Source: Opitutaceae bacterium (GTDB taxonomy: Bacteria > Verrucomicrobiota > Verrucomicrobiia > Opitutales > Opitutaceae). From it: DNA of 64,000 nucleotides. Shown here piece by piece: positions 1,816-42,949 of this stretch. The notes below the pieces were generated by a model. It worked only from the letters and a program-made list of their open reading frames with translations, was not told the DNA's origin and searched no databases. Location of the stretch: contig JAUSID010000123.1 of NCBI GenBank assembly GCA_030648295.1, positions 1-64,000 of the forward strand. The letters are read 5' to 3'. The translations under genes were made by a program, and so were the position numbers. How positions within the stretch are numbered: position 1 is the stretch's first letter; every line of letters begins with the position of its first letter.

Positions 1816-2313
1816 CTAGGCCGCAGATTTGCCCGCCGCGTCATCGGGCGCCGGAATGACGCTTCGTGCCGGTCGTGGCCGCACTGCCTCGTGATCGACG
1901 CACGACTCAACGCGGCGCGCAGAGCTGAAATCCCCGTCGCCGTCCGGACATTTTTCGAGCGCATTCGGATCGAGCACCCACACGCCGTCGACGAGAAACA
2001 TGTACTCGCACCAGCCCGGGTGGAGTGAAACTTCGCCGCTCCAGACCGCCGGCGTCAGTTCGCGCAAGCGCACGAGTGTCCTCACCAGCGATGGTGCCCG
2101 GGCTCCGCGCCCACTCCAGGGCAAATGCGAACCGCGGGCCAACTCCGGGGGCCAATCGCTGAAAAATACGGCCAGCCAGACGCTGCGCGCGCCGGGAATG
2201 GCCAGCGAGAAGGAGACCTCTGACGCGGCCTCGGCGGCCGCAGGAGCGTGCTTGTTCAACGTGTCAGGCGACACGACCGGGCCCGGCATGGCCAGTGGAA
2301 TGTTTTTCGGCAA
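1816..2313 (-). CDS. CBM48 / glycogen-binding (AMPK-beta-like) domain protein
   Basis: A 165-residue protein made mostly of one early-set beta-sandwich domain of the CBM48/isoamylase-N type. Characteristic parts are FSLAIPGARSVWLAV, a Trp in the SDWPP turn, and the closing EYMFLVDGVWVLDPN strand pair followed by an acidic turn. Such stand-alone domains bind alpha-glucans and often sit beside glycogen enzymes; here the neighbour is a GT4 transferase. The loop after SDWPPE is longer than usual. The frame opens with TTG at 2313, and ATG 2289 is an equally plausible start. Substrate binding is inferred from fold resemblance only. Confidence 0.72.
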   Translation of the reverse strand: MPKNIPLAMPGPVVSPDTLNKHAPAAAEAASEVSFSLAIPGARSVWLAVFFSDWPPELARGSHLPWSGRGARAPSLVRTLVRLRELTPAVWSGEVSLHPGWCEYMFLVDGVWVLDPNALEKCPDGDGDFSSARRVESCVDHEAVRPRPARSVIPAPDDAAGKSAA

Positions 2314-2534
2314 AGAAATGGCCTGGGGGTGTTTTTAGAGCAGCGAAGCGAAAGGGCCAGGGATCGTACGCTGATTTGCCCCCCGGGCCGGCGGTCATGA
2401 TACGCCGCCACTCGAGCCGAACGTATGGGGTGTTTCCCATCCGCCCGATTTTCCATGGCGATGGTTCTCCCGCCACGTTGTGCGACGACGCCAGGCAGTT
2501 CGGCGGAACGATGAGCCGTCCCCCGGACCGAGGT

Positions 2535-4940
2535 TCATGCCGGTCTCCCGGCTTTCGTCGCGCCCCATTTCCAGTTGCGAATCTCCGGCAGGTCCTCGCC
2601 GTGTTTGGAAATGTAGCGTTTGTGTTGGATGAGCTTGTCCCGGATCACCCGCCTGGCGGCGGCGGCGCGCGGCCCAAGGGCGGGCACGCGATCGATCACG
2701 TCGGCGGCAAGATGAAAGCGATCGAGATCGTTCATCACCACCATGTCGAATGGCGTTGAGGTCGTGCCCTCTTCCTTGAAGCCGCGGACGTGCAGGTTCC
2801 CGTGGTTGGGGCGCCGATACGTGAGCCGGTGAATCAGCATCGGGTAGCCGTGATATGCGAAGATGACGGGCTTGTCGGTCGTGAAGAGCCCGTCGAATTC
2901 CCGGTCGCTCAGCCCGTGCGGATGCTCGCTCTGCGGCTGGAGCTTCATCAGGTCCACCACGTTGATGACCCGAATCTTCAACGCGGGAAAATACCCGCGC
3001 AACAGCTCGACCGCGGCCAGGGTTTCCAGCGTGGGCACGTCGCCGCAGCAGGCCATGACGACGTCGGGCTCGCCGCCCTGGTCCTTCGCGAGCTCAGGAC
3101 TGCCCGCCCACGGCCAGATGCCGATGCCGGCCGTGCAGTGTTTGACGGCCGCCTCCATCCCGAGCCACTGCGGCGAGGGTTGTTTGCCGGCGACGATCAC
3201 GTTCACGTAGTTGCGGCTGCGCAGGCAGTGATCCGTCACGGAGCGCAGCGTGTTCGCATCGGGCGGCAGATAGACGCGAATGATCTCCGCCTTCTTGTTC
3301 ACGACGTGGTCGATGAACCCCGGGTCCTGATGGCTGAAGCCGTTGTGATCCTGCCGCCAGACGTGCGACGAGAGCAGGTAGTTCAGCGAGGCGATGGGGC
3401 GGCGCCACGTAATCCCGTTCGCCACCTTCAGCCACTTGGCGTGCTGGTTGAACATCGAGTCGACGATGTGGATGAACGCCTCGTAGCAGGAAAAGAACCC
3501 GTGCCGGCCGGTGAGCAGGTAACCCTCCAGCCAGCCTTCGCACTGATGCTCGCTCAACACTTCCATGACGCGGCCGTCGGGCGCGACATGGTCGTCGCCG
3601 GCGGTGATTTCCGCGGTGGAGCAGCGATTCGTCACCTCGAACACCGCGCCCCACCGGTTCGAGGTCGTCTCGTCGGGGCTGAACACGCGGAAGTTGTCCG
3701 GATTCAGCGCGAGCACGTCGCGTATGAACTGACCTTGGACGCGCGTGGCTTCGGCCGCGACGCCACCCGGTCGCGGCACCTTCACTGCGTAGCCGCGAAA
3801 ATCCGGCAGCCGGAGATCCTGCAGCAGGAGGCCGCCGTTCGCGTGGGGGTTGGCGCTCATGCGGCGCGCGCCTTTTGGTGCGAGAGCCGCGATTTCCGCT
3901 CGCAGCCTGCCCCTCGGGTCGAACAGCTCCCGCGGGCGATAGCTCCTCAGCCACTTTTCCAGTATCTTCACGTGTCCCGGATGGCTCATTTCACCCATCG
4001 GCACCTGATGGGAGCGGAACGTGCCCTCGGCCGGCTTGCCATCGACGACCTTCGGGCCCGTCCAGCCTTTCGGCGAGCGAAGGATGATCATGGGCCAGCG
4101 CGGTCGCTGCTTGAAACCGTGGGCGCGGGCATGGCGCTGGATCCGCCGGATGTCGGCCGTGACCCGATCGAGCGTGGCCGCCATGCGCTGGTGCATCGCC
4201 TTCGGATCAGCGCCCTCGACGAAGTGCGGCGTGTAACCGTAGCCGCGGAAGAGCGCCGCCAGTTCGTGATGCGGAATGCGCGCCAGCACGGTGGGACCGG
4301 CAATCTTGTAGCCGTTCAAATGCAGGATGGGAAGAACGGCGCCATCGCGGACCGGGTGGAGAAACTTGTTCGAGTGCCAGCTCGTGGCGAGCGGACCGGT
4401 CTCCGCCTCGCCGTCGCCGACGACACACGCGACGAGCAGGTCGGGATTGTCGAACGCCGCGCCGAACGCATGCGACAGTGAGTAACCCAGTTCGCCGCCC
4501 TCGTGAATCGAACCCGGCGTCTCCGGGGCAACATGACTCGGGATGCCGCCGGGAAAGGAGAACTGCTTGAACAGCCGCTGCATCCCGTCCGCATCCGGCG
4601 CAATGTTGGGGTAGACCTCGCTGTAGGTTCCTTCCAGATACGCGTTCGCCACCAGCCCGGGGCCGCCGTGACCGGGCCCGGTGATGTAGATCACGTTGAG
4701 GTCGTGCTGCTGAATGACGCGGTTCAGGTGGGCGTAGATGAAATTCAGCCCCGGCGTCGTGCCCCAGTGGCCGAGGAGGCGCGGCTTGATATGCGCGAGC
4801 GTCAGCGGCTGCGTGAGCAGCGGATTGTCGTAGAGATAAATCTGCCCGACCGAGAGGTAGTTTGCCGCGCGCCACCAGGCGTCGATTCGACGGAGCACTT
4901 CCGGAGTGATCGCCTTTGGATTTCTCATTTCGTTACGCAT
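2535..4940 (-). CDS. xfp: xylulose-5-phosphate/fructose-6-phosphate phosphoketolase
   Basis: This 801-residue cytoplasmic ThDP enzyme splits xylulose-5-P or fructose-6-P with phosphate to acetyl phosphate plus a triose or tetrose phosphate. Length and layout match the family. An [10 protein letters not shown] loop lies near residues 86-95, the ThDP-pyrophosphate motif [11 protein letters not shown] near 175-185, SPKGWTGPK further on, and the HQDPGF and ANTLRS segments in the C-terminal half. The ATG at 4940 is preceded by AAGGA at good spacing; a second Met four residues later is possible. With the acetate kinase at 24.2 kb it could form a respiration-independent ATP-yielding route. It looks intact. 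Confidence 0.96.
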
Positions 4941-5251: not shown

Positions 5252-7201
5252 TCATGGCCCACGCCCGGCCTCGGGCGATGACTTCCCCTTACCGGGATTC
5301 TGCTGGCCTTTCCTGGCGGGTTTCGCGGTGTCTTTTTCATCCGCGGCGGGCGCTCCTTTGGCCGGGGGTGGAGGCTCTTCTTGGGCGTTCTCCTCCAACT
5401 CCTTCGCTTTTCGCTGCGCTTCTTCCTGGGCCTTCACCGCCGCGACCTTCGCGCTTTGCTCCGATTGCTTCTGCGTCTTCTTGTCCATTCCCCGCGCGTT
5501 CGGTTTTGAATCTTCCGCGGTTCTCCCCGTCGGCTCGGCCCGGCGTTCAGACTCCTGCTGCGCCTTCTGCGCCATCCCTCTCGCGTTCCGCTGCGCTTCT
5601 TCCTGGGCCTTCACCGCCGATTCCTTCGCGCGTCGTTCCGATTCCTGTTGGGCCTGTCTCTCGCGCGGGGCCGCCACGCCTCGCACTGGCGCGGACTTCT
5701 TTTCCGGCCCGAGCTGGCGCGGTTCAGGCTGAGGATTGCTCCGGTCCGCGCTCGTCTGGCGGGCCGGTGGCTCAAATCGGGGCCCGACCTTCAGATCGGG
5801 TTTGGGTGGTTGCGGCGCCGCGGGCGGAGCCTGGTTTCTTCGCAATTGACTGGCCGGCTTGGCCACAATCGGAGAGCGGGGAAGCGGCACTTTCACCGGC
5901 TCCATGATCGCGCCCGGGCTTCGGACTTTCGTGTCCTCCGCCCTGGCCTCCAGGGCGCTCCGCTGGACGCGAGAGGTCTGTACTTCCTGCCGGCGCTGGA
6001 CCAGCTGCTGCCTTTCCTCCCTGGCCACCGGTTGAAATCGCACCGGACTGTCTTTGCTCCTGGCCAGTTGCTCGATGGATATGGCCACCTGCACGCGGTT
6101 CTCCAGTGACGCGGCCGCGGTCGGATTGATGTTTCTCTGGGCGGCCCAGGTGCGCGGCGGCCGCGCGGCTACATTATCGCGGCGATACTGGTAGGCCACT
6201 TCCACGCGATGCTCCCACTCCCGGTCCTGACGATGCACCCAGCGCTGGCGGGAAAAAAACGGGTCGTAACCATACCGGCTGGATTGAAACGAATACGACG
6301 CGTAGTAGCCGTCCTGGTTGTAGCTCGAGGCATAATAGTCACCGAAGTAGTAGTGTTGGTAGCGGGGCCGCAGGAAAAGATGGTCACCGAACACGGCCAG
6401 ATTGATCACAATCATCGGCGAGTAATAGTAGCCACGCCGCGAATACACGCCCGCATCGAAATAAACCGGCGCGAAGAGAATGCCGCGCCGTTCAACGGGG
6501 TAATCCCAGAAGCCTTCGACGAAGAGGTATCCCCGCGGGGTCCAGATGTAGTGGGCCGGAATCCAATCCCAATCGGCCTGGCTTTGCGCCCAATAACCCG
6601 GGCGCCACGCGTAACGCCCTTGATACCAGATCCAGCTGCCGGGCGTCCAACCGTAGTCGAATGACGGCGCGGCAATATTCGGTCCCGCTTCCACCGTCGC
6701 GGGCGGCGGTGGCAGATAGGTCGCCTCCCGCACCGTGGCGTCAGCCCAATAACCCGAAATCCACTGGTGGCCTTGTCTGGTTTGCCCCCAATAGCCGGCC
6801 ATCCATTCCCGGCCGGGCGGCAAGGCGCGCCAGGTGCCGCTGACCCAAAGGAAGTCGCTCCGTTCGTCATCCCAAGCCCAGTATCCAGGAATCCAGGCGA
6901 CGTTGTCTCCCTCCGGCCTCTCGGCTGGAGGAACTTCTTCGATGAGGCCGGGCGGGCTCTTTGGCACCACGATGCCCGGTTCGGGATTGAAGGTGATCAT
7001 CCCGGCAAAAGCCTCGTGCACGGGTCCGCGCGTGAGCACCTGGGCCCCCTGGACGTCGACGTTTGGCGGCTGGGCCCGGCAGATGGCGACGCCCCAACCG
7101 AGACCAATGAGAACGGCCAGCACCGCGGCCGCATGGCGTTGGGAGGCGTGGCGCGCGGGGCCGGGCTTTTCTGAGTCCAAGAAAATTCTGGAAGCTTTCA
7201 T
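5252..7201 (-). CDS. YXWGXW-repeat exported protein
   Basis: The product, about 649 residues, has an N-terminal hydrophobic signal segment ending near ICRAQ. Repeats built on Trp, Gly and Tyr follow (WIPGYWAWDD, WMAGYWGQ, WISGYWAD, WRPGYWAQ and others), the hallmark of YXWGXW-repeat proteins. A Tyr-rich stretch comes next. The last 250 residues are charged, rich in Gln, Arg, Glu, Ala and Lys with several AQEEAQR-type coiled segments, and end in a Pro/Lys-rich tail. ATG 7201 is preferred over the upstream Met because the signal peptide then begins MKASRIF. Such proteins are exported and often large in planctomycetes and verrucomicrobia; their role is unknown. Confidence 0.8.
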   Translation of the reverse strand: MKASRIFLDSEKPGPARHASQRHAAAVLAVLIGLGWGVAICRAQPPNVDVQGAQVLTRGPVHEAFAGMITFNPEPGIVVPKSPPGLIEEVPPAERPEGDNVAWIPGYWAWDDERSDFLWVSGTWRALPPGREWMAGYWGQTRQGHQWISGYWADATVREATYLPPPPATVEAGPNIAAPSFDYGWTPGSWIWYQGRYAWRPGYWAQSQADWDWIPAHYIWTPRGYLFVEGFWDYPVERRGILFAPVYFDAGVYSRRGYYYSPMIVINLAVFGDHLFLRPRYQHYYFGDYYASSYNQDGYYASYSFQSSRYGYDPFFSRQRWVHRQDREWEHRVEVAYQYRRDNVAARPPRTWAAQRNINPTAAASLENRVQVAISIEQLARSKDSPVRFQPVAREERQQLVQRRQEVQTSRVQRSALEARAEDTKVRSPGAIMEPVKVPLPRSPIVAKPASQLRRNQAPPAAPQPPKPDLKVGPRFEPPARQTSADRSNPQPEPRQLGPEKKSAPVRGVAAPRERQAQQESERRAKESAVKAQEEAQRNARGMAQKAQQESERRAEPTGRTAEDSKPNARGMDKKTQKQSEQSAKVAAVKAQEEAQRKAKELEENAQEEPPPPAKGAPAADEKDTAKPARKGQQNPGKGKSSPEAGRGP

Positions 7202-7340
7202 AATGTGATAATTTTCCCCTGAAACCACCCGCGCTGATCAAAGCAGGGAGGTTCGCCCGCGCGGGCTGCGCCTCCTGTGGCCCGACTGAGACTCCGCGGC
7301 GCCGGCCAGCGGCAGGGGGTGTTACCCGCACACGACGGCT

Positions 7341-7445
7341 TGGGCTGTGGCGAATCAAATCGCAGGTGCGGGCGGCGGTGACCCGCGCGGCCGCACCCTT
7401 GTCGGCGAAAAAATTCAGCACCTCAACCAAGACCCAGTCAGTCGT
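7341..7445 (-). pseudogene. PIN-toxin gene fragment (duplicate of 8418-8522)
   Basis: Read on the minus strand this encodes a 35-residue piece running TTDWVLVEVLNFF to IRHSP. It matches the central part of the PIN gene at 8226-8633 with three residue changes. It has no start and no catalytic N-terminus, so it is a gene scrap. The two copies are in direct orientation about 1.08 kb apart and flank the DUF433 gene. Confidence 0.85.
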
Positions 7446-7502
7446 CCTTCCTTGCGTCACGTCGCAAGGTCTTGCACTTTCCGAATCATGGAGCCGCGCA
7501 CG

Positions 7503-8168
7503 ATGCCCGCCTACAGCCTGACCGATGCTGCCCGCTGCATTGGCGCGCATCCGGCCACCCTGCGCTCATGGTTCAAAGGCCGCTCCTATCCCACCAAGGG
7601 CGGACCACGGCGCTCGCCGAATCTCCTCGTTCCGGCGGCGACGGACGCACTTTCGTTCCAAAATCTAATCCAGGCCCACGTCGTTCAAGGCATTCGAAAG
7701 CGCTACCACATTCCCATGCATCGGGTCCGCGATGCGCTGGCTTATCTGCGAGAGTCCGTCGGACATCTGGATCTCCTCGCCTCGGAGAAATTTTATCACG
7801 ACACCGAGCACCTGCTCCTGAAGGTCGAGGACCGGCTGATTTCGCTTTCGGAACGCGGACAGACGGTCAGCGAGACGGTGCTCCAGCAATACCTCCATCG
7901 CATCGACTACGGTCAGGACGGTTTCGCAGCGCGGCTCCATCCGTTCCTCTACACGGCCACCGGACAGCTTTACGAACCGCGGCACATCATGATTGATCCG
8001 ACGATTGCGTTCGGGAAACCGTGCATCGAGCGGTTGGGGGTCAAGACGGACATCATTGCGGAACGCTTTCTCGCCGGAGAACCCATCGAGGATCTCACGA
8101 CGGACTATGGCGCCAAGACCGAGGAAATCCAGGAAGCCATCCGCTGGTCCACCCGCAAGGCCGCCTGA
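7503..8168 (+). CDS. DUF433 antitoxin-like protein with MerR-like HTH
   Basis: A 221-residue protein. The N-terminus (YSLTDAARCIGAHPATLRSWFKG) is a MerR/HTH-17-type DNA-binding helix pair. The C-terminus (IDPTIAFGKPCIERLGVKTDIIAERF ... GEPIEDLTTDYG) is a DUF433 domain. Proteins of this layout are antitoxin-like and normally precede a DUF5615-type PIN-like toxin. ATG 7503 is chosen because GGAG lies nine bases upstream; ATG 7488 is an alternative. No intact partner follows on this strand, only a short frame beginning PPVFFIDR. The convergent neighbour is a different PIN gene. It may be an orphan antitoxin. Confidence 0.75.
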   Translation: MPAYSLTDAARCIGAHPATLRSWFKGRSYPTKGGPRRSPNLLVPAATDALSFQNLIQAHVVQGIRKRYHIPMHRVRDALAYLRESVGHLDLLASEKFYHDTEHLLLKVEDRLISLSERGQTVSETVLQQYLHRIDYGQDGFAARLHPFLYTATGQLYEPRHIMIDPTIAFGKPCIERLGVKTDIIAERFLAGEPIEDLTTDYGAKTEEIQEAIRWSTRKAA

Positions 8169-8261
8169 GCCTCCGGTTTTCTTCATCGACCGCGGGGAGC
8201 GTGAACCGGGCAGGCGCTGCGCTTGTCACCGAAGCAAGGCTTTGAAGCCCATCTGCTCGAA
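8169..8261 (+). pseudogene. possible remnant of the DUF433 partner toxin
   Basis: Immediately after the DUF433 stop, one frame reads PPVFFIDRGERE and then loses any family character within about a dozen residues, ending at a stop near 8261. Toxins paired with DUF433 proteins commonly begin with a short strand carrying FFxDR or FFxDE. This may be the first few codons of such a gene, cut off when the neighbouring PIN cassette arrived. The match is short and could be chance. Confidence 0.25.
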
Positions 8262-8633
8262 ATGGTGATCGTGCGTGAACACCTCGGTGAGCTGACGCTC
8301 GCGCATGATTTTGAGCGAATGGCAATCGACCGCGCTCCACTCTTTGTCGGCGTGCTGGCGGTAAAGACCGGTTGCCGCTTCGAGATCGCTACGGAGCGCT
8401 GGCACGACCTCGACGTTCGGGCTGTTGCGAATCGAATCGCAGGTGCGGGCGGCGGTGACCCGCACCGCCGCACCTTTGTCGGCGAAAAAATTCAGCACCT
8501 CAACCAAGACCCAGTCCGTGGTGACAAGTTGCAATCCGCCCTGTGCGGTCGCCGCCATGGCCAAGGCGTGAAGATCGTCGCGAGGATTGATCAGCGCGAT
8601 CCAGTAGTTCGCATCGGCAAACACCGTCTTCAT
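8226..8633 (-). CDS. PIN-domain ribonuclease, VapC-like toxin
   Basis: A 135-residue PIN domain. The expected acidic residues are present: Asp7 in FADANYWIAL, Glu in WVLVEVLN, Asp in WSAVDCHSL and Asp in FTHDHHF. PIN toxins cut RNA using metal held by these residues. The start codon overlaps the stop of the upstream 315-residue gene (ATGA), so the two are translated together and that partner is the natural antitoxin candidate. A 105-base part of this gene is duplicated at 7341-7445. Confidence 0.88.
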   Translation of the reverse strand: MKTVFADANYWIALINPRDDLHALAMAATAQGGLQLVTTDWVLVEVLNFFADKGAAVRVTAARTCDSIRNSPNVEVVPALRSDLEAATGLYRQHADKEWSAVDCHSLKIMRERQLTEVFTHDHHFEQMGFKALLR

Positions 8634-9577
8634 TCTTCCGCCACTTTCGAATGGCCGTAGAGGTAGTGGTCGAGATTGCGCGCTCCGTCAGTGGGAACCT
8701 TGGCCCACTCCGCTGCCGGCACCGCGCGACCGATCTCCTCGACAACCTCCCAAATGGGTTTCGCGGTCGGGTCGAAAACGGGTTGGCCGCGGGCGACGAT
8801 TTCCACCTGCGCGCCGGGTTTGATGCGACGCAACGTGCCATCGGCATCGAACTGCCCGGTGCCTCGAACCCGGAGTTGCAGCGTGCGGTGTTCGTGCAGC
8901 GCTTGCGTGACGCAGGCTTCGTGTTCCGGCGAAAAAACGCCATCGGCCTTGCCACCGCGTTCGAGCGAAAGCGTGAATTCGCCGCCGCCCGCCGGCCGGA
9001 GGCTGGCGGCGCGCACCTCTCCGGTCACGTCAACTGCGTCCTCATAGCCGCCGCGCACGCGGGCGAGCAGCACGTCGCGCGTGCGCGGGTTGTAATCGAC
9101 CGCGCGGCTGCGTCCCGTAGCGCGCGACTCCACGCCCTCATCGAGGCGCAGTGTCCGGCCAAAATCCTCGAACAGCACCAGGGCGCTTCGGGGAAACCGT
9201 TCCGGCAACGGTGCGTCCGTGGGGGCGTTTCCGGCCTCGATGCAGTCGTCGATCAGGCCGACGGCGGCTGCAACGTCGTCCTCGGGATCGAGACCAAGTT
9301 CATCCGCTTCGAACACGGGATAGGAGCGTTCGATCGGCACGCAGGCGGAGCCCTTCCCGACTTCGCGAAAGAACAGTTGGATGCCATCCTCGAAATACCG
9401 CGGCAGGCGCTCGCGCTGCGGGTGGCGGGCGCGCCACAGCGCCTTGGCCGTCTCGACGAGCAGCCGCTTGTAGGCGAGCAACTCGGGCAGGGTGTCGATT
9501 TCCAAAAACCCGGCGGCGGCTTCAAAACGTCCGCCATGGAAACGGAGCGTCGTGAGCGGTTTGACAGGCGTGTTCAT
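8630..9577 (-). CDS. uncharacterised 315-residue protein coupled to PIN toxin
   Basis: I do not recognise the family. The protein begins MNTPVKPLTTLRFHGG. Early helices are rich in Arg and Glu, a middle stretch carries DPEDDVAAAVGLIDD, and the C-terminal half is beta-rich and charged with a LQLRVRGTGQFDADG strand pair. The last residues (LDHYLYGHSKVAEE) overlap the PIN start by four bases. ATG 9577 is preferred over an upstream codon because the sequence before it is low-quality. It is far longer than a normal VapB antitoxin, so either it is a large antitoxin or the pair has another job. It lies 75 bases after the Trp-repeat gene on the same strand. Confidence 0.75.
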   Translation of the reverse strand: MNTPVKPLTTLRFHGGRFEAAAGFLEIDTLPELLAYKRLLVETAKALWRARHPQRERLPRYFEDGIQLFFREVGKGSACVPIERSYPVFEADELGLDPEDDVAAAVGLIDDCIEAGNAPTDAPLPERFPRSALVLFEDFGRTLRLDEGVESRATGRSRAVDYNPRTRDVLLARVRGGYEDAVDVTGEVRAASLRPAGGGEFTLSLERGGKADGVFSPEHEACVTQALHEHRTLQLRVRGTGQFDADGTLRRIKPGAQVEIVARGQPVFDPTAKPIWEVVEEIGRAVPAAEWAKVPTDGARNLDHYLYGHSKVAEE

Positions 9578-9652
9578 GGCGCGGCGGGGATGCGGACAGC
9601 GATAACAGGCCACCCATCGATGCCGAGTGCAAATTCGGCGCGTGGTCGTGGC

Positions 9653-10897
9653 TCACGCGGGCGGCTGGAGGAAGTCGGGCCAGCTGATCCAGCCTTTGCC
9701 TTTGTAGTAGGTTGCCGGACTTCCGGGTATGTCCGGCGGGCGGTTTCCGGGGTGCTTGCTCCAAGCGATCCAATCCTTTCCGTTCCGGAAACCTTGCGCC
9801 CGGGCGAAAGCTCGCGCGGCTTCAAACGATCGGAATTTTCGGTCCGATGGCGCGAGAGTGCCGGTGCCAAGCCAGTCGCCCCAACCGCGCCATTGCTCGC
9901 GATAATAATCTTTTGGATTGCGCGGTATATCCGATGGAAATGTCGGTTTATCGGGGAAGTCGCCGTTGAGGTAGCGCGGCCACGCCAGCGAGCCGGGGAG
10001 ACGCAACGCGTGAACGAACGCACGTGCGGAATCAAAGTCCCTGAAGACGAAAGCACGCTTGCGAGTTCGTTTCACTTCGCGCACTTCCATGCCGAGCCAG
10101 TCCGTCCAGTTGATCCAACCTTTTTCGGCGTAGGTGCGTTCGGGAGAACGAGGGACTCGCTCAGGTTGTCGATTCGAGGCAGTCAGCGCATTCCATGCGG
10201 TGCGCGATGGAAGGTGAAGGGCACGCACTACGTCACGCGCTTCCGTATAGGAGAAATAATTGCGCACGGTCGTGCCCACCATGCCGTGGCCCAGCCAGTC
10301 GCCCCAACTGGTCCAGCCGGCTCCCTCGTATGATTTCCAAGGAGCCGCTGGAATATCATCGGGCTTGGCTGGAAGCTCGGGACGTTTGCCGGAACAGTAG
10401 GCCTTCCAATGCTGCTGACCACGGAGATTCAGCCGACGAGCAAACTCCCGAGCTTGATCGAAGGCGCACCAGGGCGCGCGGACATCTTCGTAGCCGAGCC
10501 AATCCGCCCAACCGGCCCATTTTTCAGCATAGGCTCTGCACTTTTCGGGTGTAGATGGAATGTCGAACGGTAACTTTGGCTTTCCGAGAAGCCTTCCGGT
10601 GCAATACGGGTGCCATTCATCCGAGCTTTTCAGCTGCAAACTTCGAATGAACTCACGTGCTTCGTCAAAAGGTCGGAAGCGTTTGAGCTTTGAGCCAAAG
10701 GCCCCGGTGCCGAAAAACGTTCCCCAATTCGTCCATCCGTTTCTCGCATATGATTTGTCAGGGGATTTCGGAATGTCAGCAGGCCATTTTGATCCGAGGT
10801 TATCGATGAGTGCGCGCCATTGACTTTGGCTTTTCGCGTTGTGCGAACGTGCAAACGCAGCGGCTTCCTCATAGCTTCTATACGACAGCTTCGCCAC
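9653..10897 (-). CDS. six-fold Trp-rich (GWxxWxDWLG) repeat protein
   Basis: A 414-residue protein built almost wholly of six tandem units of roughly 55-70 residues. Each unit has a helix like SFxEARxFxRxLxL, a W followed by a small loop, a DIPxxPxxxY segment and a closing GWxxWxDWLG. The units resemble the Trp-rich repeats sometimes called integrase repeats and, in spirit, helicase-associated repeats. It has no catalytic motif. The GTG start at 10897 sits behind an AGGAG that overlaps the stop of the helicase gene, so the two are certainly co-expressed. I infer a DNA- or protein-binding accessory subunit of the helicase. Confidence 0.8.
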   Translation of the reverse strand: MAKLSYRSYEEAAAFARSHNAKSQSQWRALIDNLGSKWPADIPKSPDKSYARNGWTNWGTFFGTGAFGSKLKRFRPFDEAREFIRSLQLKSSDEWHPYCTGRLLGKPKLPFDIPSTPEKCRAYAEKWAGWADWLGYEDVRAPWCAFDQAREFARRLNLRGQQHWKAYCSGKRPELPAKPDDIPAAPWKSYEGAGWTSWGDWLGHGMVGTTVRNYFSYTEARDVVRALHLPSRTAWNALTASNRQPERVPRSPERTYAEKGWINWTDWLGMEVREVKRTRKRAFVFRDFDSARAFVHALRLPGSLAWPRYLNGDFPDKPTFPSDIPRNPKDYYREQWRGWGDWLGTGTLAPSDRKFRSFEAARAFARAQGFRNGKDWIAWSKHPGNRPPDIPGSPATYYKGKGWISWPDFLQPPA

Positions 10898-10903
10898 GCT
10901 CTC

Positions 10904-12904
10904 CTAACAGCGCACTTCGATCTGGCTCGCGAACTCCGCGGCGTTCACCCCGAGCGGGATGACGACGTTGGCGAAGTCGAAATCGATTAGGCCGCCGACT
11001 TCCGGGGTGCGGCCCTCGGCCGTGGCGCGGAACCATTCGATGATGCGTTCGTCGTGGGCCGCCAACGCTCGCAGGACCAGGAGCACGAATTTGAAGGCGC
11101 TCATCGCGGTGACTTCGTCGAGCGTCGCGCCGTCGGGAACGACGAGCGGCAGCAGGATGTAGCCGCGCGTTTTTCCCGGCGCGAGGCGGAGGGCGCGGCC
11201 GGCAGCTTGCACGATTTCAATGGTGCTGCCTTTTGGGTCGGCGAAGAAAACGCAGTCGATGCTTGGAATGTCTACGCCTTCGGTGAGGCAGCGGGCGTTG
11301 GTGATGAGTGAGGGCCCGGCGGCAAGGAAGCGTTTGATTTCGCGCTGGCGGGCAGCGCTGCCGAGTTTCCCGGAGACGTGGTGGGCGGGGATAGGCGGCT
11401 CGGTGGTGAGGTGCGCGTTGAGGCGGTTGCAGAGGGTTTGGAAATCGCGCGCGCGGGCGATGCTGCTGTGGAAGGAGACCGTGTGGCGCACGCCGTGGAC
11501 GGCGGCGGCGCGGCGGAGGGCGATGAGGCTGGCGAGGGCGAGCGCGGTGACTTCGTCGGGGCCGTCGGGGCCGAGGTCGAGCCAGCGGTTGGCGGCGACG
11601 AGCGCGGCGACGTCGGACTGGCGCACGCCGATGGTGAGGATGTGGTAGTCGCAGAGGATGGCGGGCTCGGCGGCGATGGCGGCTTTGAAGGTGAGGAGCG
11701 AAAATGTTTCCCCGTAGAGCGCGGGGTCGTCCATCGATACGATGTCGTCGGAGGTGCCGGCGAAACGGCGCTCAGTGGCCGTCATGAAGAGGCGGCGCGG
11801 GAGCGGGAGGTGGGCGTCGTCGAGCAGGTGAGCGAAGACGCCGGCGGCCTTGCCGGTAGTCTTGTGGGCTTCGTCGAGGACGGCGAAATCGAAGGCGAAG
11901 CCGGCGGTGCGCGCGGCGGCGGCGAGGACGGGCGAGCTTTGATACGTCGTGAGCACGACCAGCAGTCCGGCGCGGTCCCGCGCGGCGGTGAGTGTGGCGG
12001 TGAGCTCTTCGGGCTGCGTGCACGGGATGCCAAGTTCGTGCATGTGCGCCGTCAACGTATCGTCATCGAAGTCCGCGACTTGCTCGTCACTGCACACGCA
12101 GAGCCAGTCGACCGGCTCGCGCCGTGCCAGTGCCTCGCGCATCCACGTCTCCAGCGTCTGCCGGACAAGCGCGAGGCTCGGCACGGCGACGAGCACGCGT
12201 TTCGCGCCGAACGCCTGCGCGATCCAGCAGGCCGTGAGACTCTTCCCGGAACCGCAGGGGCTGATCAGCTTGCCTCGGCTCTGTCCACGATGGCCGAAGT
12301 AATCAATCCCTGCCGCAATCGCCCGATCCTGGTGCGGCTTGGGAATGAGCGGCGGGGGCGGCACGGCGGCCGTTCCGGTGCCCAACGTTTCCCGGAGCGA
12401 AGCAAAAAAGCCCTCGTCAAGGCTCGACCACGTTTCGCTCGTCAGATCGCCCAGGCGGGGAAGGCCCGTCAGTATTCCGGGAATGCGGGTCGTCGTCGTG
12501 CAGACGAGCGCGTAACTGAAGCCACGGCACACTGTGAACGCGAGCGATGCGAACGTGGAGAGCTCGGCGAACGTCAGCGATCCGTCGGCATCGGCGCGAT
12601 ATTTTGCCTGCACCGCCCAGAACTCGCCCGCGTGCGTTTCCGCCACGAGATCGATTCCCATATCGCGCAACGGCAGGTTCAGTCGCGATTGGACTTCCGG
12701 TGGCACATCCGCACGCAACCAGACGCGCGCGAGCTTAGCGCAATAGATGGGATCGGTGGTGAGGTAGTGGCGCACGACCAGCTCGAACATGCTTCCGCGT
12801 ATGCCTTCATTCTGCGCGGCCGCTCCGCCGCAGAAATCCGACCACGAGGCGATGCTGGAGAAAAATTCGCCGGGACGCATACGAACGGCGTGATTCAGCC
12901 GCAT
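10904..12904 (-). CDS. restriction nuclease-like/SF2 helicase fusion
   Basis: About 666 residues. Residues ~80-105 hold a PD-(D/E)xK-like core (GIDLVAE ... FWAVQAKY) as in Mrr-type nucleases. A superfamily 2 helicase follows, with Walker A CGSGKSLTA near 218, DEAH in VLDEAHKT near 345, MTATERR, and motif VI in VQAAGRALRLAPG. The fusion suggests an enzyme that moves along DNA and cuts it, as in restriction or other defence systems. No methyltransferase gene is adjacent. ATG 12904 is chosen; TTG 12922 and ATG 12880 are options. The Trp-repeat protein follows after six bases. Confidence 0.85.
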   Translation of the reverse strand: MRLNHAVRMRPGEFFSSIASWSDFCGGAAAQNEGIRGSMFELVVRHYLTTDPIYCAKLARVWLRADVPPEVQSRLNLPLRDMGIDLVAETHAGEFWAVQAKYRADADGSLTFAELSTFASLAFTVCRGFSYALVCTTTTRIPGILTGLPRLGDLTSETWSSLDEGFFASLRETLGTGTAAVPPPPLIPKPHQDRAIAAGIDYFGHRGQSRGKLISPCGSGKSLTACWIAQAFGAKRVLVAVPSLALVRQTLETWMREALARREPVDWLCVCSDEQVADFDDDTLTAHMHELGIPCTQPEELTATLTAARDRAGLLVVLTTYQSSPVLAAAARTAGFAFDFAVLDEAHKTTGKAAGVFAHLLDDAHLPLPRRLFMTATERRFAGTSDDIVSMDDPALYGETFSLLTFKAAIAAEPAILCDYHILTIGVRQSDVAALVAANRWLDLGPDGPDEVTALALASLIALRRAAAVHGVRHTVSFHSSIARARDFQTLCNRLNAHLTTEPPIPAHHVSGKLGSAARQREIKRFLAAGPSLITNARCLTEGVDIPSIDCVFFADPKGSTIEIVQAAGRALRLAPGKTRGYILLPLVVPDGATLDEVTAMSAFKFVLLVLRALAAHDERIIEWFRATAEGRTPEVGGLIDFDFANVVIPLGVNAAEFASQIEVRC

Positions 12905-13048: not shown

Positions 13049-13258
13049 ATGAGTAACACGATCACCATTCGATTGCCGGAGGAGTTGGACCAGTGGCTGG
13101 AGAAGGAATCGAAACGGACCGGTCTGCCCAAGGGCCAGATTGTGCGGGAGCAACTCGAACTCTCGCGCACGCGGAAGGCGCGTCAGCCTTTTCTCGACCT
13201 GGCCGGGAGCGTCGAAGGTGCGCCCGGCTTGAGCCGCAAGCGGGGGTTCGAGGCGTGA
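13049..13258 (+). CDS. ribbon-helix-helix antitoxin, VapB/CopG-like
   Basis: A 69-residue protein with a typical ribbon-helix-helix start (NTITIRLPEELDQWLEKES) followed by a helix with GLPKGQIVREQLE, and a short tail expected to block the toxin. RHH antitoxins dimerise, bind their own promoter and neutralise the co-encoded PIN toxin. The ATG at 13049 gives exactly the family length. The stop overlaps the toxin start as GTGA. Autoregulation is expected from the family. Confidence 0.88.
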   Translation: MSNTITIRLPEELDQWLEKESKRTGLPKGQIVREQLELSRTRKARQPFLDLAGSVEGAPGLSRKRGFEA

Positions 13259-13671
13259 ACGGTATTGCCGACACCGGTTTTCTGGTCGCCTTCGCCAACC
13301 GCCGGGATGCCTATTTCCCGTGGGCCCACGCACTGGCCGGGAACATCCACGAGCCCCTGCTCACCTGTGAGGCGGTGCTGGCCGAGACGGCGTTTCATCT
13401 CAAGAATAGCGCGCTGGTGCTGCGCTTCCTGGAAACCGGACTGGTGCGGCTGGCCTTCGACCTGGAGAGCCATCGTCCGGAGCTCGCGGGCCTGGCGCAG
13501 CGCTATGCCGACCGCCAGCCCGACCTGGCCGACCTGTGTCTCATCCGCCTGAGCGAGCTGAATCCCAAGCTGCCGGTGATCACGGTGGATGGCGACTTCA
13601 GGCTCTATCGCCGCAACCGGAGGGAGATTATCCCCGTGGTCATGCCCCCGGACGTCGAACCTGCTTCGTGA
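13255..13671 (+). CDS. PIN-domain toxin, VapC-like
   Basis: A 138-residue PIN domain. Acidic residues expected at the active site are Asp in IADTGFLVAF, Glu in AVLAETAF, Asp in PDLADLCLIRL and Asp in ITVDGDFRLYRR. The GTG at 13255 overlaps the antitoxin stop, giving coupled translation. It is a likely RNase toxin. Its 3' end overlaps the convergent SWIM gene by about 30 bases. Confidence 0.88.
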   Translation: MNGIADTGFLVAFANRRDAYFPWAHALAGNIHEPLLTCEAVLAETAFHLKNSALVLRFLETGLVRLAFDLESHRPELAGLAQRYADRQPDLADLCLIRLSELNPKLPVITVDGDFRLYRRNRREIIPVVMPPDVEPAS

Positions 13672-21492: not shown

Positions 21493-22740
21493 TCAAACAC
21501 CCCAGAGCCTTCCCGTTGCCATGGTTTCGTCCATTTCCTCATATTTTTCCAACACCTCGGTGCGATACGCGGGCGAGATCGAAACGGCCTGCGCGGCAAT
21601 CCGCTCGCAATAGCCGCACGCCTGGCAGTCCGTGGAGGCGCAGTCACGGTCGCGAAAGCCGTCCAGGAAATCCCCCGGGATCTTCCGCGTATCCACCCGG
21701 ATCGGACACTCCGGCAGCGGGGACTGCCAGCCTTGCAGGCGCGCCAGGTCGCGCATCGGTTTCAGCCGGAGCGGATTTACCTGCCGCGGCTTCCAGAAGT
21801 GACGCAGACCCCAGAGGGATTCCTGGCGGACCGGCTGCTTGAAGCCATACGACAGCAGCAGTTCCGCCAGATTGCCATCGAACCGCCGTTCGCTGTAGGC
21901 TTTGACGCGTCGCAGCAGTTCCGCCGATGGAATTCCCCGTTCGAGCAGCTTGAAGGTCGTGTAGCCCATTGCTTCATAGACGGCGAGGTCCTCCGGCCGG
22001 ATCCAGGCCGACTTGATGAACTGCGACGGATCCTTCAATCGCGTCCGCGAACAGCGCAGGAAGCAGTAATCGATGAACAGCGTGCCGGTGTCGTCCGACG
22101 CATGGGCGAAACCGTTCTGATGATACGACTGCATCGGACAGTTCATGAGGCAGACGTGGTTCGCGATCAGTTCCAGATCGCAACGGACCGCCCGGCGGAT
22201 TGACGCCAGCCGGTGAAAGTTCCGGTTGATCGAGAAGCTCTCCAGCACGATCGCATCCGCCCCGAGATCTTCCCAGAAGCGGGCGCGCCGGGCCGTGTCC
22301 ACCTGGGCATAGATCCCGACTCTGACCTTGAACTCGGGAAAACGGCGCTTGACCAGTTCCAGCAGAAAAGGGGTGGAGACGGTGACCCGGCGCACGCCCA
22401 TGTCGCCCAGTTTGGCCAGCAGGGCCGTCACCCGTTTCTGCCACGGGCGGGTCCATTCGCGGTTGCCGAAACAGGCGCCGTTCAGGAGATAATTAAACGC
22501 GATGCCGTGACGGTCGAGCAGGCGAATATAACGCCCCAGATCTTCCTCCGAGAGCGGTGTCGCCAGATAGCGGGGACGGCCACTGCTGATACCGTCGGTG
22601 GGAAACTTGCCGTAAACTTCATCCACCGGGTAGGCGGCGAGCGCTGGTACCAGATCCGGATCGTAGTTTGCCGCCAGTGAGAATCTGGTCGGCCGGGGTG
22701 GGGCGCGCGCGGCGGCCGGGTCCGAGTCGATGGTCTTCAT
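21493..22740 (-). CDS. U32-peptidase-like, Cys-rich protein
   Basis: A 415-residue TIM-barrel-like protein resembling the peptidase U32/UbiU-V group. The barrel part includes LAANYDPDLVPALAAYPVDEVY, GVRRVTVSTPFLLELV and VGIYAQVD. The Cys clusters ANHVCLMNCPMQSYH, FIDYCFLRCS and the C-terminal CASTDCQACGYC could bind an Fe-S cluster. U32 relatives take part in tRNA or ubiquinone hydroxylation or in collagenase-like activity; which applies here is unknown. It follows the alpha/beta hydrolase by a few bases. A deleted second copy is at 42405-42949. Confidence 0.72.
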   Translation of the reverse strand: MKTIDSDPAAARAPPRPTRFSLAANYDPDLVPALAAYPVDEVYGKFPTDGISSGRPRYLATPLSEEDLGRYIRLLDRHGIAFNYLLNGACFGNREWTRPWQKRVTALLAKLGDMGVRRVTVSTPFLLELVKRRFPEFKVRVGIYAQVDTARRARFWEDLGADAIVLESFSINRNFHRLASIRRAVRCDLELIANHVCLMNCPMQSYHQNGFAHASDDTGTLFIDYCFLRCSRTRLKDPSQFIKSAWIRPEDLAVYEAMGYTTFKLLERGIPSAELLRRVKAYSERRFDGNLAELLLSYGFKQPVRQESLWGLRHFWKPRQVNPLRLKPMRDLARLQGWQSPLPECPIRVDTRKIPGDFLDGFRDRDCASTDCQACGYCERIAAQAVSISPAYRTEVLEKYEEMDETMATGRLWGV

Positions 22741-22744
22741 GAGC

Positions 22745-23569
22745 TCAGGTCTTGAGGAATGCCAGCAGGTCGGCGTTGAGCTGGTCTTTGTGCGTGGCCG
22801 CTACGCCGTGGGGTGCGCCCGCGTAGATTTTCAGATTCGCTTTCCTGACCAGTTTCGCGGATCGGTGCGCTGCGGCGCCGATCGGCACGATCTGGTCGTC
22901 GTCGCCGTGAACGATCAGCGTCGGCACGTCGAATTTCTTGAGGTCTTCGGTGAAATCCGTTTCGGAAAACGCCTTGATGCAGTCGAACGTGTTCTTGTGA
23001 CCAGCCTGCATCCCCTGAAGCCAGAACGAGTCGATCATTCCCTGCGAAACCTTGGCGCCGGGCCGGTTCGCACCGAAGAAAGGGCCGCGGGCGAGATCCT
23101 GGTAGAACTGCGAGCGGTCCGCGATGGAGGCGAGTCGGATCGCGTCGAACTTCTCCATCGGCAAACCACCGGGATTGGCGGCCGTTTTCAACATCAGCGG
23201 CGGAACGGCGGAGATCAGCGCGGTCTTGGCCACCCGTTTCGTGCCATGGCGGCCGACATAGCGGGCAACTTCGCCACCGCCAGCGGAGAATCCGATTAAG
23301 ACGGCGCCCTTCAGGTCGAGCGTTTCGATGAGCTCCGAGAGGTCATCGGCATAGGTGTCCATGTCATTGCCGCTCGACGGCTGGCTCGATCGGCCATGAC
23401 CACGACGGTCATGCGCAATGCAGCGATAACCATTGGCGGCCAGGAACATCATCTGAGCTTCCCAGCTATCCGCGTTGAGGGGCCAACCGTGGCTGAACAC
23501 CACCGGCGGTCCGGCGCCCCAGTCCTTATAATAGATCTGCGTTCCGTCTTTTGTCGTAATCGTGCTCAT
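22745..23569 (-). CDS. alpha/beta hydrolase (arylesterase/chloroperoxidase-like), copy 1
   Basis: A 274-residue alpha/beta hydrolase. The oxyanion-side motif is FSHGWP, the nucleophile elbow is GFSAGGG (Ser95), an acidic residue sits in HGDDDQIVP and the catalytic His in GAPHG. This resembles cofactor-free haloperoxidase/arylesterase enzymes, so a small ester or peracid chemistry is likely. Translation is coupled to the upstream DUF6448 gene (ATGA). A near-identical copy lies at 41568-42392; I count about 31 differences in 274 residues. Confidence 0.93.
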
Positions 23570-23955
23570 AGTTTACTGCGTGTGCGGGTGAGGAGATGCC
23601 GGAGTTCCTTCGGTTTCGGAGGACTGGCCGTGAGCCGCGCTGGCCGCCGCGTCATGCAGCCCTTCGACGCGAGGGTCTCGAAGAAATACCGGTCGGCCAG
23701 CTCGCGCGCTTCGGCGTTGAGCTTGCGCACCGCAAGCGTCCTTTCGAAAGTGTGTTTGATTTCGGCTTCGTCCGCCTTCTGCACCCAGATCACGACGAGA
23801 TTGACATTGTCTTCCGTCAGCGCCGCCCGCGCGGCTTTGACGACCGGGCCATCCAGACTATCGCAATGTGCTCGGGCGGCGTGAGGCGCCAGAAGCGCCG
23901 CCGCTGTCAGCATGGTTAAAGTCGTCAATGCCTGTTTCAGGTTCGTGTTCTTCAT
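23566..23955 (-). CDS. DUF6448-like exported protein, C-terminally truncated
   Basis: A 129-residue frame from ATG 23955 with a signal peptide (ending near [11 protein letters not shown]) and the conserved part of DUF6448 proteins: [20 protein letters not shown] and a [24 protein letters not shown]-like block. After YFFETL the usual continuation is missing and an Arg/Lys-rich tail of ~25 residues follows instead, apparently read from other sequence. The frame then overlaps the hydrolase start. It may be a degraded family member. Function of the family is unknown. Confidence 0.7.
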
Positions 23956-41516: not shown

Positions 41517-41567
41517 GGCGTACCCGCGCTTCGGGCCGTTCGCCCAAGAGGCATCCAAGAGAAAACC

Positions 41568-42392
41568 ATGAGCACGATTACGACCAAGGATGGAACCCAG
41601 ATCTTCTACAAAGACTGGGGCACGGGACAACCGGTGGTATTCAGCCACGGCTGGCCCCTCAACGCGGACAGTTGGGAGGCTCAGATGATGTTTCTGGCCT
41701 CCCATGGTTGTCGCTGCATTGCCCATGACCGTCGCGGCCACGGCCGCTCGAGCCAGCCGTGGACCGGCAATGACATGGACACCTATGCCGACGACCTAGC
41801 GGAACTCATCGCAACGCTCGACTTGAAGGGCGCGGCCCTGATCGGGTTCTCCGCGGGCGGCGGCGAAGTTGCCCGCTATATTGGCCGCCACGGCACGAAA
41901 CGGGTGGCCAAGGCCGCGCTGATCTCCGCCGTTCCGCCACTAATGTTGAAAACGAAGGCCAATCCGGGCGGCTTGCCGATGGAGAAGTTTGACGAGATCC
42001 GTCTCGGCGCCACCGCCGACCGCTCGCAGCTCTACCGGAATCTCGCCAGCGGCCCGTTCTTCGGGGCCAACCGGCCGGGGGCCAAAGTTTCGCAGGGCAT
42101 GATCGATTCGTTCTGGCTCCAGGGAATGCAGGCCGGGCACAAGAACACCTTCGAATGCATCAAGGCATTTTCCGAAACGGATTTCACCGAAGATCTGAAA
42201 AGATTCGATGTGCCGACGCTGATCGTTCACGGCGACGACGATCAGATCGTGCCGATCGGCGCCGCGGCTCTCCGCTCCGCGAAGCTGGTCAGGAACGCGA
42301 CCCTGAAGATCTACGCGGGCGCACCCCACGGCCTCGCGGTCACGCACCAGGACAAGCTCAACGCCGATCTGCTCGCCTTCCTGAAGACCTGA
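41568..42392 (+). CDS. alpha/beta hydrolase (arylesterase/chloroperoxidase-like), copy 2
   Basis: A 274-residue intact paralogue of the hydrolase at 22745-23569. The FSHGWP motif, GFSAGGG nucleophile elbow, HGDDDQIVP acid and GAPHG histidine are all kept. Changes are scattered, with a cluster around residues 150-170. It sits between two decayed genes that correspond to the neighbours of copy 1, so it alone has stayed under selection or the decay is recent. Confidence 0.93.
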
Positions 42393-42404
42393 AGTCGCTT
42401 CGCC

Positions 42405-42949
42405 GTGAAAACAACCGGCTCCGATCCAGCCGACGCGCGGGCCATACCCCGCGTGACGAAGTTCTCACTGGCGGCGAACTACGATCCGGAACTGGTTTCG
42501 GCGCTCGCCGCCTACCCGGTGGATGAGGTTTATGGCAAGCTTCCCAACGACGATGTCAGCAGTGGCCGTCCCCGCTATCTGGCGACACCGCTTTCGGAAG
42601 ACGATCTGCGCAACTACATCCGTCTGCTCGACCGTCATGGCATCGCCTTCAACTATCTCCTGAACGGCGCCTGTTTCGGCAACCGCGAATGGACGCGCCG
42701 GTGGCAGAAACGGATCACGGCCCTGCTGGCCAAACTGGGCGACATGCCTCGGATGACACCAGCACGCTCTTCATCGACTACTGCTTCCTGCGCTGTTCGC
42801 AGATGCGCATTCAGGATCCATCGCAGTTGATCAAGTCGGCTTGGATCCGGCCGGAGGATCTCGCCGTCTATGAGGCGATGGGCTACACGACCTTCAAGAT
42901 ATTCGCGCCGGCCCTCCCCGGCACAATTTTCATGTCTGGGCCGTGGTGA
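42405..42949 (+). pseudogene. U32-like gene, broken second copy
   Basis: From GTG 42405 the frame follows the U32-like protein closely (FSLAANYDPELVSALAAYPVDEVYG ... ALLAKLGDM) for about 115 residues. Then roughly 105 codons, including the first Cys cluster, are missing. The similarity resumes in another frame near 42752 (SDDTSTLFIDYCFLRCSQM ... AMGYTTFK) and ends near 42900, where the C-terminal ~130 residues are gone. Internal deletion, frameshift and truncation make it a pseudogene. Confidence 0.9.

Follow-up and report, generated by a model that had tools for sequence, protein, structure and literature searches.

The gene at positions 9653–12904 of the window (64,000 nucleotides of contig JAUSID010000123.1, Opitutaceae bacterium, assembly GCA_030648295.1) belongs to a family that is a variant of the Type ISP restriction enzymes, in which 4–10 INT_rpt-like repeats replace the coupler, the methyltransferase and the TRD. 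Judged from its sequence, the window locus itself is almost certainly one gene split by a stop codon. The family, which carries a nuclease-motor and a tryptophan-rich repeat chain, is little known; no description of a methyltransferase-less nuclease-helicase-repeat architecture was found by title and abstract start in the open-licence PMC literature.

Domain organization of the gene

The positions of the domains and repeats are listed in Table 1. A sequence-only reading had proposed an Mrr-like nuclease core fused to an SF2 helicase. Pfam matches to Mrr_cat_2, ResIII and Helicase_C supported this fusion, and the GSGKS, DEAH and GIDLVAE...AVQAKY motifs were all found in the nuclease-helicase ORF. 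Six WxxWxDWLG repeats were counted in the 414-aa repeat ORF, as had been proposed, using a profile seeded from that ORF; the number of repeats varies from 4 to 10 in relatives. No methyltransferase was detected by Pfam in the two ORFs and seven scanned neighbours, in agreement with the same reading. The nuclease core residues were conserved among homologues, D...QxK being present in all but one of 18 aligned sequences (17 of 18, window copy counted); the exception was L031, a homologue that has lost the nuclease.

Table 1. Positions of the gene, its domains and repeats, and two nearby genes in the window
Feature	Position	Strand	Evidence
Whole gene, one frame: nuclease, SF2 motor and six repeats, with one TAG inside	9653..12904	-	
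Mrr-like nuclease domain with D...QxK (GIDLVAETHAGEFWAVQAK)	12482..12757	-	Mrr_cat_2, E 7.6e-14
First RecA-like lobe of SF2 motor (Walker A CGSGKS, DEAH)	11774..12343	-	ResIII, E 2.9e-11
Second RecA-like lobe of SF2 motor	11183..11431	-	Helicase_C, E 8.4e-10
In-frame TAG; Trp in 17/17 other aligned homologues	10904..10906	-	
Array of six INT_rpt-like repeats; earlier read as a separate gene from GTG 10897	9653..10897	-	
Repeat 1	10709..10876	-	Profile seeded from array itself
Repeat 2	10493..10672	-	Profile seeded from array itself
Repeat 3	10289..10462	-	Profile seeded from array itself
Repeat 4	10091..10252	-	Profile seeded from array itself
Repeat 5	9866..10039	-	Profile seeded from array itself
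Repeat 6	9665..9829	-	Profile seeded from array itself
PDC-M32A-like gene (PADLOC candidate), downstream neighbour	8630..9613	-	PADLOC 1.9e-39
PIN-domain gene, four-base overlap with PDC-M32A-like gene	8226..8633	-	Pfam PIN 5.3e-8

Interruption of the reading frame

The two halves of the gene had been described as a two-gene operon, with a repeat gene starting six bases after the helicase stop and a Shine-Dalgarno sequence overlapping that stop. The six-base gap between TAG and GTG and the AGGAG overlapping the stop were confirmed, whereas a Shine-Dalgarno sequence belonging to a second gene was not; the AGGAG and GTG of the window align with Trp-Glu-Ser-Val codons of the closest relatives. 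Both ORFs lie in the same reading frame and are separated by the single TAG. A paralogue in the same genome (L006/L002, 75%/81% identical) is a single ORF of 1100 aa that continues over the junction, and in the alignment of relatives that hold the junction, this paralogue and 16 other homologues are all continuous there, with Trp in place of the stop. Because the ORFs share a frame and the relatives are unbroken at this point, the two-gene reading is unsupported and was rejected.

A true operon, in which the repeat protein is reinitiated at GTG 10897 and forms a complex with the helicase, is thus considered very improbable. The succession of AGGAG and GTG at the stop would fit such an arrangement, as would the absence of any further stop in either half; however, the spacer between AGGAG and GTG is just three bases, and the GTG position is occupied by Val, Ile or Leu in the 17 other homologues, and therefore a start function is not needed there. 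Either the window copy is nonsense-split or its TAG arose in assembly (the genome is in 294 contigs). With regard to a suppressor tRNA for UAG, 0 tRNA genes were found within the 64-kb window. The joined function has probably been lost in the window copy, which in its split form could give no more than a nuclease-motor without targeting, possibly accompanied by free repeat protein. The locus exemplifies how a single gene with an internal stop can pass for a new system of two genes.

Relationship to Type ISP enzymes

There is little doubt that the nuclease-motor is a Type-ISP-like chassis. A profile of nine family sequences matched LlaBIII (4xqk) with an E of 1.5e-109 over positions 11–628 of 1084, and in a fold search with the full-length L028 model 4xqk ranked first (E 6e-29). 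The N-terminal Mrr-family nuclease joined to an SF2 ATPase, a feature of Type ISP, is present in the window family. The window protein also matched PADLOC REase_MTase_IIG (9e-87) over positions 16–643 of 1646; the match ends there, and the coupler-methyltransferase-TRD part is absent. The unbroken relatives carry repeats in that place, and no methyltransferase family. A truncated Type ISP gene that has lost its methyltransferase half was ruled out because repeats close the unbroken relatives; in G285 they are followed by a short tail with weak NUMOD1/I-TevI-like matches, below cut-offs. Two scans of viral contigs returned no relatives, and 712 plasmid records matched the chassis, 0 of them covering more than 80% of the query.

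Within one order, the same chassis profile was found with window-type repeats, with HA repeats (L047, L048, L049, L050 and L052/L064) or with NPPY methyltransferase motifs (L051, L060, L065 and L066) as tails. A branch (100/99) in a 26-row tree separated the 17 repeat-bearing rows from all others. No HA (PF03457) match was found in the window protein, and the idea that the window repeats are HA repeats renamed was discarded on the lack of an hhalign match (E 0.4).

Identity of the repeats and their occurrence in other proteins

PF14882 (INT_rpt) scored 23.6 bits against the window, under the curated cut-off of 26.5, and 30.3 bits against the relative G227, above it; L028 and L032 were unreported at E 0.01. 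Profile-profile comparison of the INT_rpt repeats of G569 with the verrucomicrobial repeats gave a probability of 97.9% (E 3.6e-13). When PF14882 was searched over 387 genomes of the phylum at E 0.001, 1 match was obtained (G569), with 0 of 14 control genomes matched. PF14882 is a poor probe for the window family because it matched 1 of 387 genomes and missed the window's own. Among solved structures, no credible counterpart of the repeats emerged from Foldseek (best E 5.1), from sequence comparison (best E 0.13) or from 43 chains (0 at Z 2), and their AF2 model had a pTM of 0.28. A fold search of BFVD gave an unnamed protein as the top match (4.7e-6) and also giant-virus SF2 helicases (best of these 1.4e-3), from which no shared fold is claimed.

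Like repeats were observed in other kinds of protein. L091 is a GmtZ-like Integrase_2 protein that contains six stretches of INT_rpt; its NCBIfam GmtZ score, 182.5 bits, does not reach the cut-off of 600. The huge-phage protein LR745208 combines like repeats, which reached just E 0.087 against PF14882, with an N-terminal part that matches endonuclease VII/HNH (best 2.6e-18). One locus encodes an SF2 helicase with INT_rpt followed by INT_rpt with an HNH-like domain.

Probable exchange of repeat arrays

Amino acid identities for nuclease, motor and repeats were 82, 86 and 38% between L030 and L032, 82, 88 and 50% between the paralogue and G048, and 56, 83 and 81% between the window gene and the paralogue. 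In three of five pairs, two of which share G048, synonymous divergence (dS) jumped at the motor/repeat border: from 0.40 to 2.06 (paralogue and G048), from 0.42 to 2.2 (window and G048), values of about 2 lying close to saturation, and from 0.42 to saturated (L030 and L032). No clear jump was seen between the window gene and the paralogue (0.53 in the motor, 0.81 in the repeats) or between L028 and G387 (1.52 in the motor, not computable in the repeats). We read the leap in dS at this border as a sign that arrays are exchanged wholesale between otherwise similar motors, as happens in the evolution of restriction specificity modules. The dN/dS of the repeats was 0.16–0.22 in the three pairs where it was computable, and therefore their function appears to be kept. 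Substitutions in two pairs of close arrays were spread over many columns, with no single "code" position.

Distribution and genomic neighbourhood

The repeat-only query matched 11 of 286 genomes of the class. The helicase and the repeats had been expected to occur together across genomes, and this was the case in 7 of the 11, each with one long ORF holding both parts; the other 4 had short repeat ORFs or fragments only.

The gene had been placed in an island with three PIN genes and a SWIM/SNF2 pair. SWIM and SNF2 genes were confirmed by Pfam. Two PIN genes passed the Pfam cut-off, the one in Table 1 and another at 13093–13671, whereas the third was seen only as a 43-aa remnant near 7317–7445 (the PIN scan took in part of the window). 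The PDC-M32A-like and PIN genes, which had been suggested as possible further members, did not hold up as constant partners, since the paralogue and L028 have two others in that place; no constant partner gene was found among the loci compared. The G048 homologue also adjoins a PDC-M32A-like gene (L079 6570–7514, 2.1e-42). Clear defence neighbours were observed at one homologue only, G312, which adjoins a BREX cluster (BrxL/PglZ/PglX) and an AbiO/Nhi-like gene. The proposal of a defence-type system is weakly borne out by BREX at G312 and PDC-M32A at the window and G048, whereas no PADLOC family was assigned to 10 of the 14 neighbours selected at other homologues. A role in defence against mobile elements seems somewhat likely.

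Proposed mechanism

The repeat array is likely to be a DNA-targeting module, and the intact family would fairly likely act as a nuclease that translocates and that an exchangeable array directs against foreign DNA, the window copy being inactivated. In binding its target on DNA, the array would act as a string of small helical units, and the length of the target would increase with their number. Binding would load the motor, which by homology to LlaGI and LlaBIII would translocate on DNA, and the nuclease may cut when two motors collide or one stalls. As the protein lacks a methyltransferase, the host might be spared through rarity or absence of the target in its genome, or through an array that reads a foreign modification. 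LlaGI and LlaBIII have been described as translocating in an ATP-driven manner and cleaving when two enzymes collide (PMC4666363).

It is unlikely that the repeats, instead of choosing DNA targets, serve as a tether to RNA or to a protein partner in a nuclease-helicase of repair or surveillance. The SF2 matches do include RadD, and neither a solved structure for the repeats nor, in the open-licence PMC literature, an assay of INT_rpt repeats was found; however, the closest chassis is Type ISP rather than RadD, arrays differ strongly among similar motors, presence is patchy, and like repeats also occur on HNH-like nuclease and integrase proteins. A Type IV-like restriction enzyme, whose array recognizes DNA structure or a modified base instead of sequence, would make a methyltransferase unnecessary, consistent with its absence from the polypeptide. 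The fold matches of the motor include SauUSI (7clg, rank 7), which is modification-dependent. It is an ATP-dependent SF2 enzyme (PMC7913695). This alternative is nonetheless quite doubtful: array length (4–10) and array exchange fit sequence reading better than the sensing of one modified base, and no SRA-like domain was found by Pfam in the relatives scanned.

If the family works as an array-aimed nuclease, an exchangeable tandem-repeat array could aim a restriction motor in place of the methyltransferase-TRD, the sparing of the host without a methyltransferase would become a clean question, and the family would provide a first functional lead for INT_rpt repeats. As a speculative extension, to which we give a low probability, INT_rpt arrays might be a modular DNA-reading code, TALE-like in use, that bacteria and phages plug into enzymes as unrelated as Mrr-motor nucleases, HNH nucleases and integrases; the verrucomicrobial enzymes would then be methyltransferase-free, array-addressed translocating nucleases whose specificity is altered by swapping or lengthening the array.

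Comparison with known systems

The VPA1269/GmtZ-like integrases, found beside gmtY and gmtX, share the same repeat kind by profile, although there the repeats precede Integrase_2, whereas in the window family they follow the nuclease-motor. LR745208 likewise joins an array of repeats to a nuclease-like domain, but its nuclease is of another type and it has no motor. The HA-repeat helicases (PF03457; L037, L047 and L049, with five HA stretches each) have the same chassis followed by tandem repeats of about 60 aa, whereas HA and window-type repeats share no detectable common profile (hhalign probability 0.1). Like LlaGI and LlaBIII of Type ISP, the window family has an Mrr-family nuclease and an SF2 helicase-like ATPase in one chain and in the same order, homologous throughout both; in contrast to these enzymes, it carries a repeat array in place of the coupler-methyltransferase-TRD, and its members are about 950–1380 aa long, compared to 1578 for LlaBIII.

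A single reading frame interrupted by a stop codon

The window gene occupies one reading frame with a single internal stop, TAG (see table). Ahead of the stop the gene encodes an SF2 motor preceded by an Mrr-like nuclease (together called the chassis), and beyond it an array of six tandem repeats. The gene contains the nuclease and helicase signatures GID...QAK, CGSGKS, DEAH, and QAAGRALR. The sequence-only reading had proposed two genes, the second a Trp-repeat protein with its own Shine-Dalgarno and GTG start; this was not borne out. The paralogue on another contig of the same genome is a single 1100-aa ORF, 75% and 81% identical to the window gene in its two halves. In an alignment of 18 homologues, Trp was present at the position of the TAG in all 17 other sequences (G-numbers denote compared genomes and L-numbers loci read from them; L036, broken elsewhere and outside the alignment, has the Trp too, and the junction is missing in G020, L035, and L038). 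The junction codons were TAG-GAG-AGC-GTG in the window, TGG-GAG-AGC-GTG in the paralogue and G048, and TGG-GAG-AAA-ATT in G060. Because relatives read Trp through this position, the supposed Shine-Dalgarno and GTG start correspond to coding sequence: in the closest relatives these bases spell Trp-Glu-Ser-Val, and the stop falls within the Trp codon. Shine-Dalgarno spacers are five to nine bases as a rule.

Judged from these sequences, the plainest reading of the TAG is a nonsense mutation. It may instead be an assembly error, and gene breakage among the close loci may be partly technical because most of them are metagenome assemblies. Among 13 close loci (window, paralogue, L028, L030, L031, L032, L035, L036, L038, G048=L033, G060=L029, G020=L034, and G387=L042), six were unbroken, six, including the window with its putative nonsense mutation, were broken, and one (L035) was ended by the contig edge. 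The unbroken paralogue has CASGKS instead of CGSGKS in Walker A. G020 and the genome that carries the window are assigned to one genus. If real, the breakage fits a costly nuclease that is frequently lost.

Features of the window, broken loci, and related loci
Sequence	Position	Strand	Feature
Window	9653-12904	minus	Window gene
Window	10904-10906	minus	Broken: TAG, codon 667 from ATG at 12904
L031			Broken: nuclease lost
G060			Broken: array tail ~1.5 kb off; intervening ORF transposase-like by eye
G020			Broken: internal deletion and frame change
L036			Broken: frame change; also cut by contig end
L038			Broken: match stops after 229 query residues
Window	5252-7228	minus	658-aa ORF; repeated WxxGxW-like motifs by eye (WIPGYW, WVSGTW, WMAGYW); charged, low-complexity tail
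Window	7317-7445		43-aa remnant, 81% identical to PIN gene 8226-8633; adjoins DUF433 gene 7347-8168
Window	7342-7445, 8419-8522		DNA 93% identical, local duplication
Window	13049-13671	plus	Short CopG-like gene (by eye) running into PIN-domain gene, immediately upstream of window gene and on the opposite strand; probably a VapBC-type toxin-antitoxin pair
Window	22399-23577, 41560-42746		Inverted 1.19 kb pair, 86% identical; more matching pieces nearby
Window	60523-61307		Internal repeats within plus-strand ORF 56862-62216 (1784 aa)
L078 (paralogue); L028	7684-9101; 5343-6734		Shared pair of downstream genes (identities 75% and 82%); no family for one, the other weakly SocA/Panacea-like (23.6 bits; cut-off 25.7)
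L092, huge phage LR745208 (485 kb)	2215-3993		HNH/endonuclease VII-like N-terminus, ~five like repeats (by eye)
L088, G569 (distant Verrucomicrobiota)	6858-9062		SF2 helicase with terminal INT_rpt repeats
L088, G569	9059-10681		Seven INT_rpt repeats and HNH-like C-terminus; four-base overlap with helicase gene

Probable exchange and nature of the repeat array

Nuclease, motor, and repeat identities were 82%, 86%, and 38% between L030 and L032, and 82%, 88%, and 50% between the paralogue and G048. In three pairs, dS jumped at the motor-repeat border, from motor values of 0.40-0.42 to 2.06, 2.2, or saturated in the repeats; G048 is common to two of these pairs, and dS near 2 is close to saturation. 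Such a jump suggests module replacement, since relaxed protein constraint would leave dS unraised. The repeat dN/dS of 0.16-0.22 (three pairs) points to purifying selection on the repeats. A clear jump was absent in two of the five pairs (window-paralogue, 0.53 to 0.81; L028-G387, not computable). Between window and paralogue, dS was 1.42 in the nuclease and 0.53 in the motor, which suggests that the nuclease also differs between these two copies by exchange.

The repeat unit is ~58 residues, with the rough consensus PFeEAReFar.L.L.s...W..Y.......P.DIP.sP...Y...GW..WgDWLG. By profile, the window array counts 6 units, and those of homologues range from 4 to 10. AF2 modelled the repeats as beads of short helices (pLDDT 81, pTM 0.28), to which nothing credible matched in the PDB. 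Against INT_rpt (PF14882), the window repeats scored 23.6 bits (cut-off 26.5) and those of G227 30.3 bits; L028 and L032 gave no reported INT_rpt match at E 0.01. The probability against the INT_rpt repeats of G569 was 97.9%. These scores would place the window-type repeats within or next to INT_rpt; HA repeats (PF03457) did not match them. PHINT_rpt/PF14882 appears as a row in a table of PMC8078820.

Similar repeats occur on other enzymes. A GmtZ-like integrase that carries them adjoins gmtY and gmtX; its NCBIfam GmtZ match is under the model cut-off. The G569 pair is, by its predicted domains, a second helicase-repeat-nuclease arrangement with a different nuclease (HNH match 0.00085, 19.9 bits vs 21.4). 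G285 showed weak NUMOD1 and I-TevI-type matches after the repeats, under cut-offs. The apparent exchange, the enzymes that carry similar repeats, and the position in the chain indicate that the array is probably a targeting module. TALE arrays recognise DNA repeat by repeat.

Co-occurrence and genomic neighbours

The repeats-only query (A2) matched 11 of 286 class genomes. One long ORF held both parts in seven (own genome, G858, G515, G888, G871, G864, and G884); G059, G248, G760, and G800 had only short repeat ORFs or fragments, and a nuclease-helicase was absent from the surrounding 8-19 kb read. The full profile (A1) matched 19 of 372 genomes of the order at 1e-20. By our reading of the loci, which places G387 in two classes, these comprised seven with repeat-type chassis (G000, G020 (broken), G060, G387, G227, G285, and G312), five HA-type (G374, G391, G307, G186, and G398), four methyltransferase-type by the NPPY motif (G028, G387, G198, and G146), and four with repeats only (G059, G356, G087, and G248). 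The G356 chassis may be missing because its ORF begins at the contig's edge.

The G312 gene is flanked on one side by BrxL, PglZ, and PglX pieces and on the other by an AbiO/Nhi-like gene; a partial TmtA-like match lies farther out. Next to both the window gene and its G048 homologue is a PDC-M32A-like gene. Among 14 genes selected at other homologues, without background control, PADLOC gave one PDC-M32A (G048), one partial DrmA (6.3e-12, L030), and weak matches in two L080 genes that better fit regulator/kinase domains; the other ten had no PADLOC family (three each at L078 and L082, and one each at L028, L032, L079 4912-5889, and L080 6365-7900). Matches of the window SNF2 gene reached 4.6e-117 and included ZorD, DpdE, and further models of SNF2 type; they are taken as generic SNF2 similarity. 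The window SWIM gene had a weak PDC-S62 match.

Kinship with Type ISP enzymes

Profile A3, built from nine sequences (seven repeat-type, two HA-type), matched the Type ISP restriction enzymes LlaBIII (4xqk, 1.5e-109) and LlaGI (5ffj, 4.1e-86). The top fold match of the L028 model (mean pLDDT 73, pTM 0.50) was also 4xqk, and PADLOC REase_MTase_IIG matched across positions 16-643 of 1646. In a chassis tree of 26 rows (17 repeat-type, 6 HA, and 3 methyltransferase-type), a branch supported at 100/99 set all repeat-type rows apart from the rest; HA-type L037 was their neighbour, with a long-branch warning for HA_L037 and HA_L039. L031 was omitted from the tree for lack of a nuclease, and L052/L064 and L066 are likewise not among its rows. 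The mechanism of Type ISP enzymes is among the matters described in PMC4666363. These enzymes carry a methyltransferase and TRD at the place that is held by the repeat array in the repeat-type chassis.
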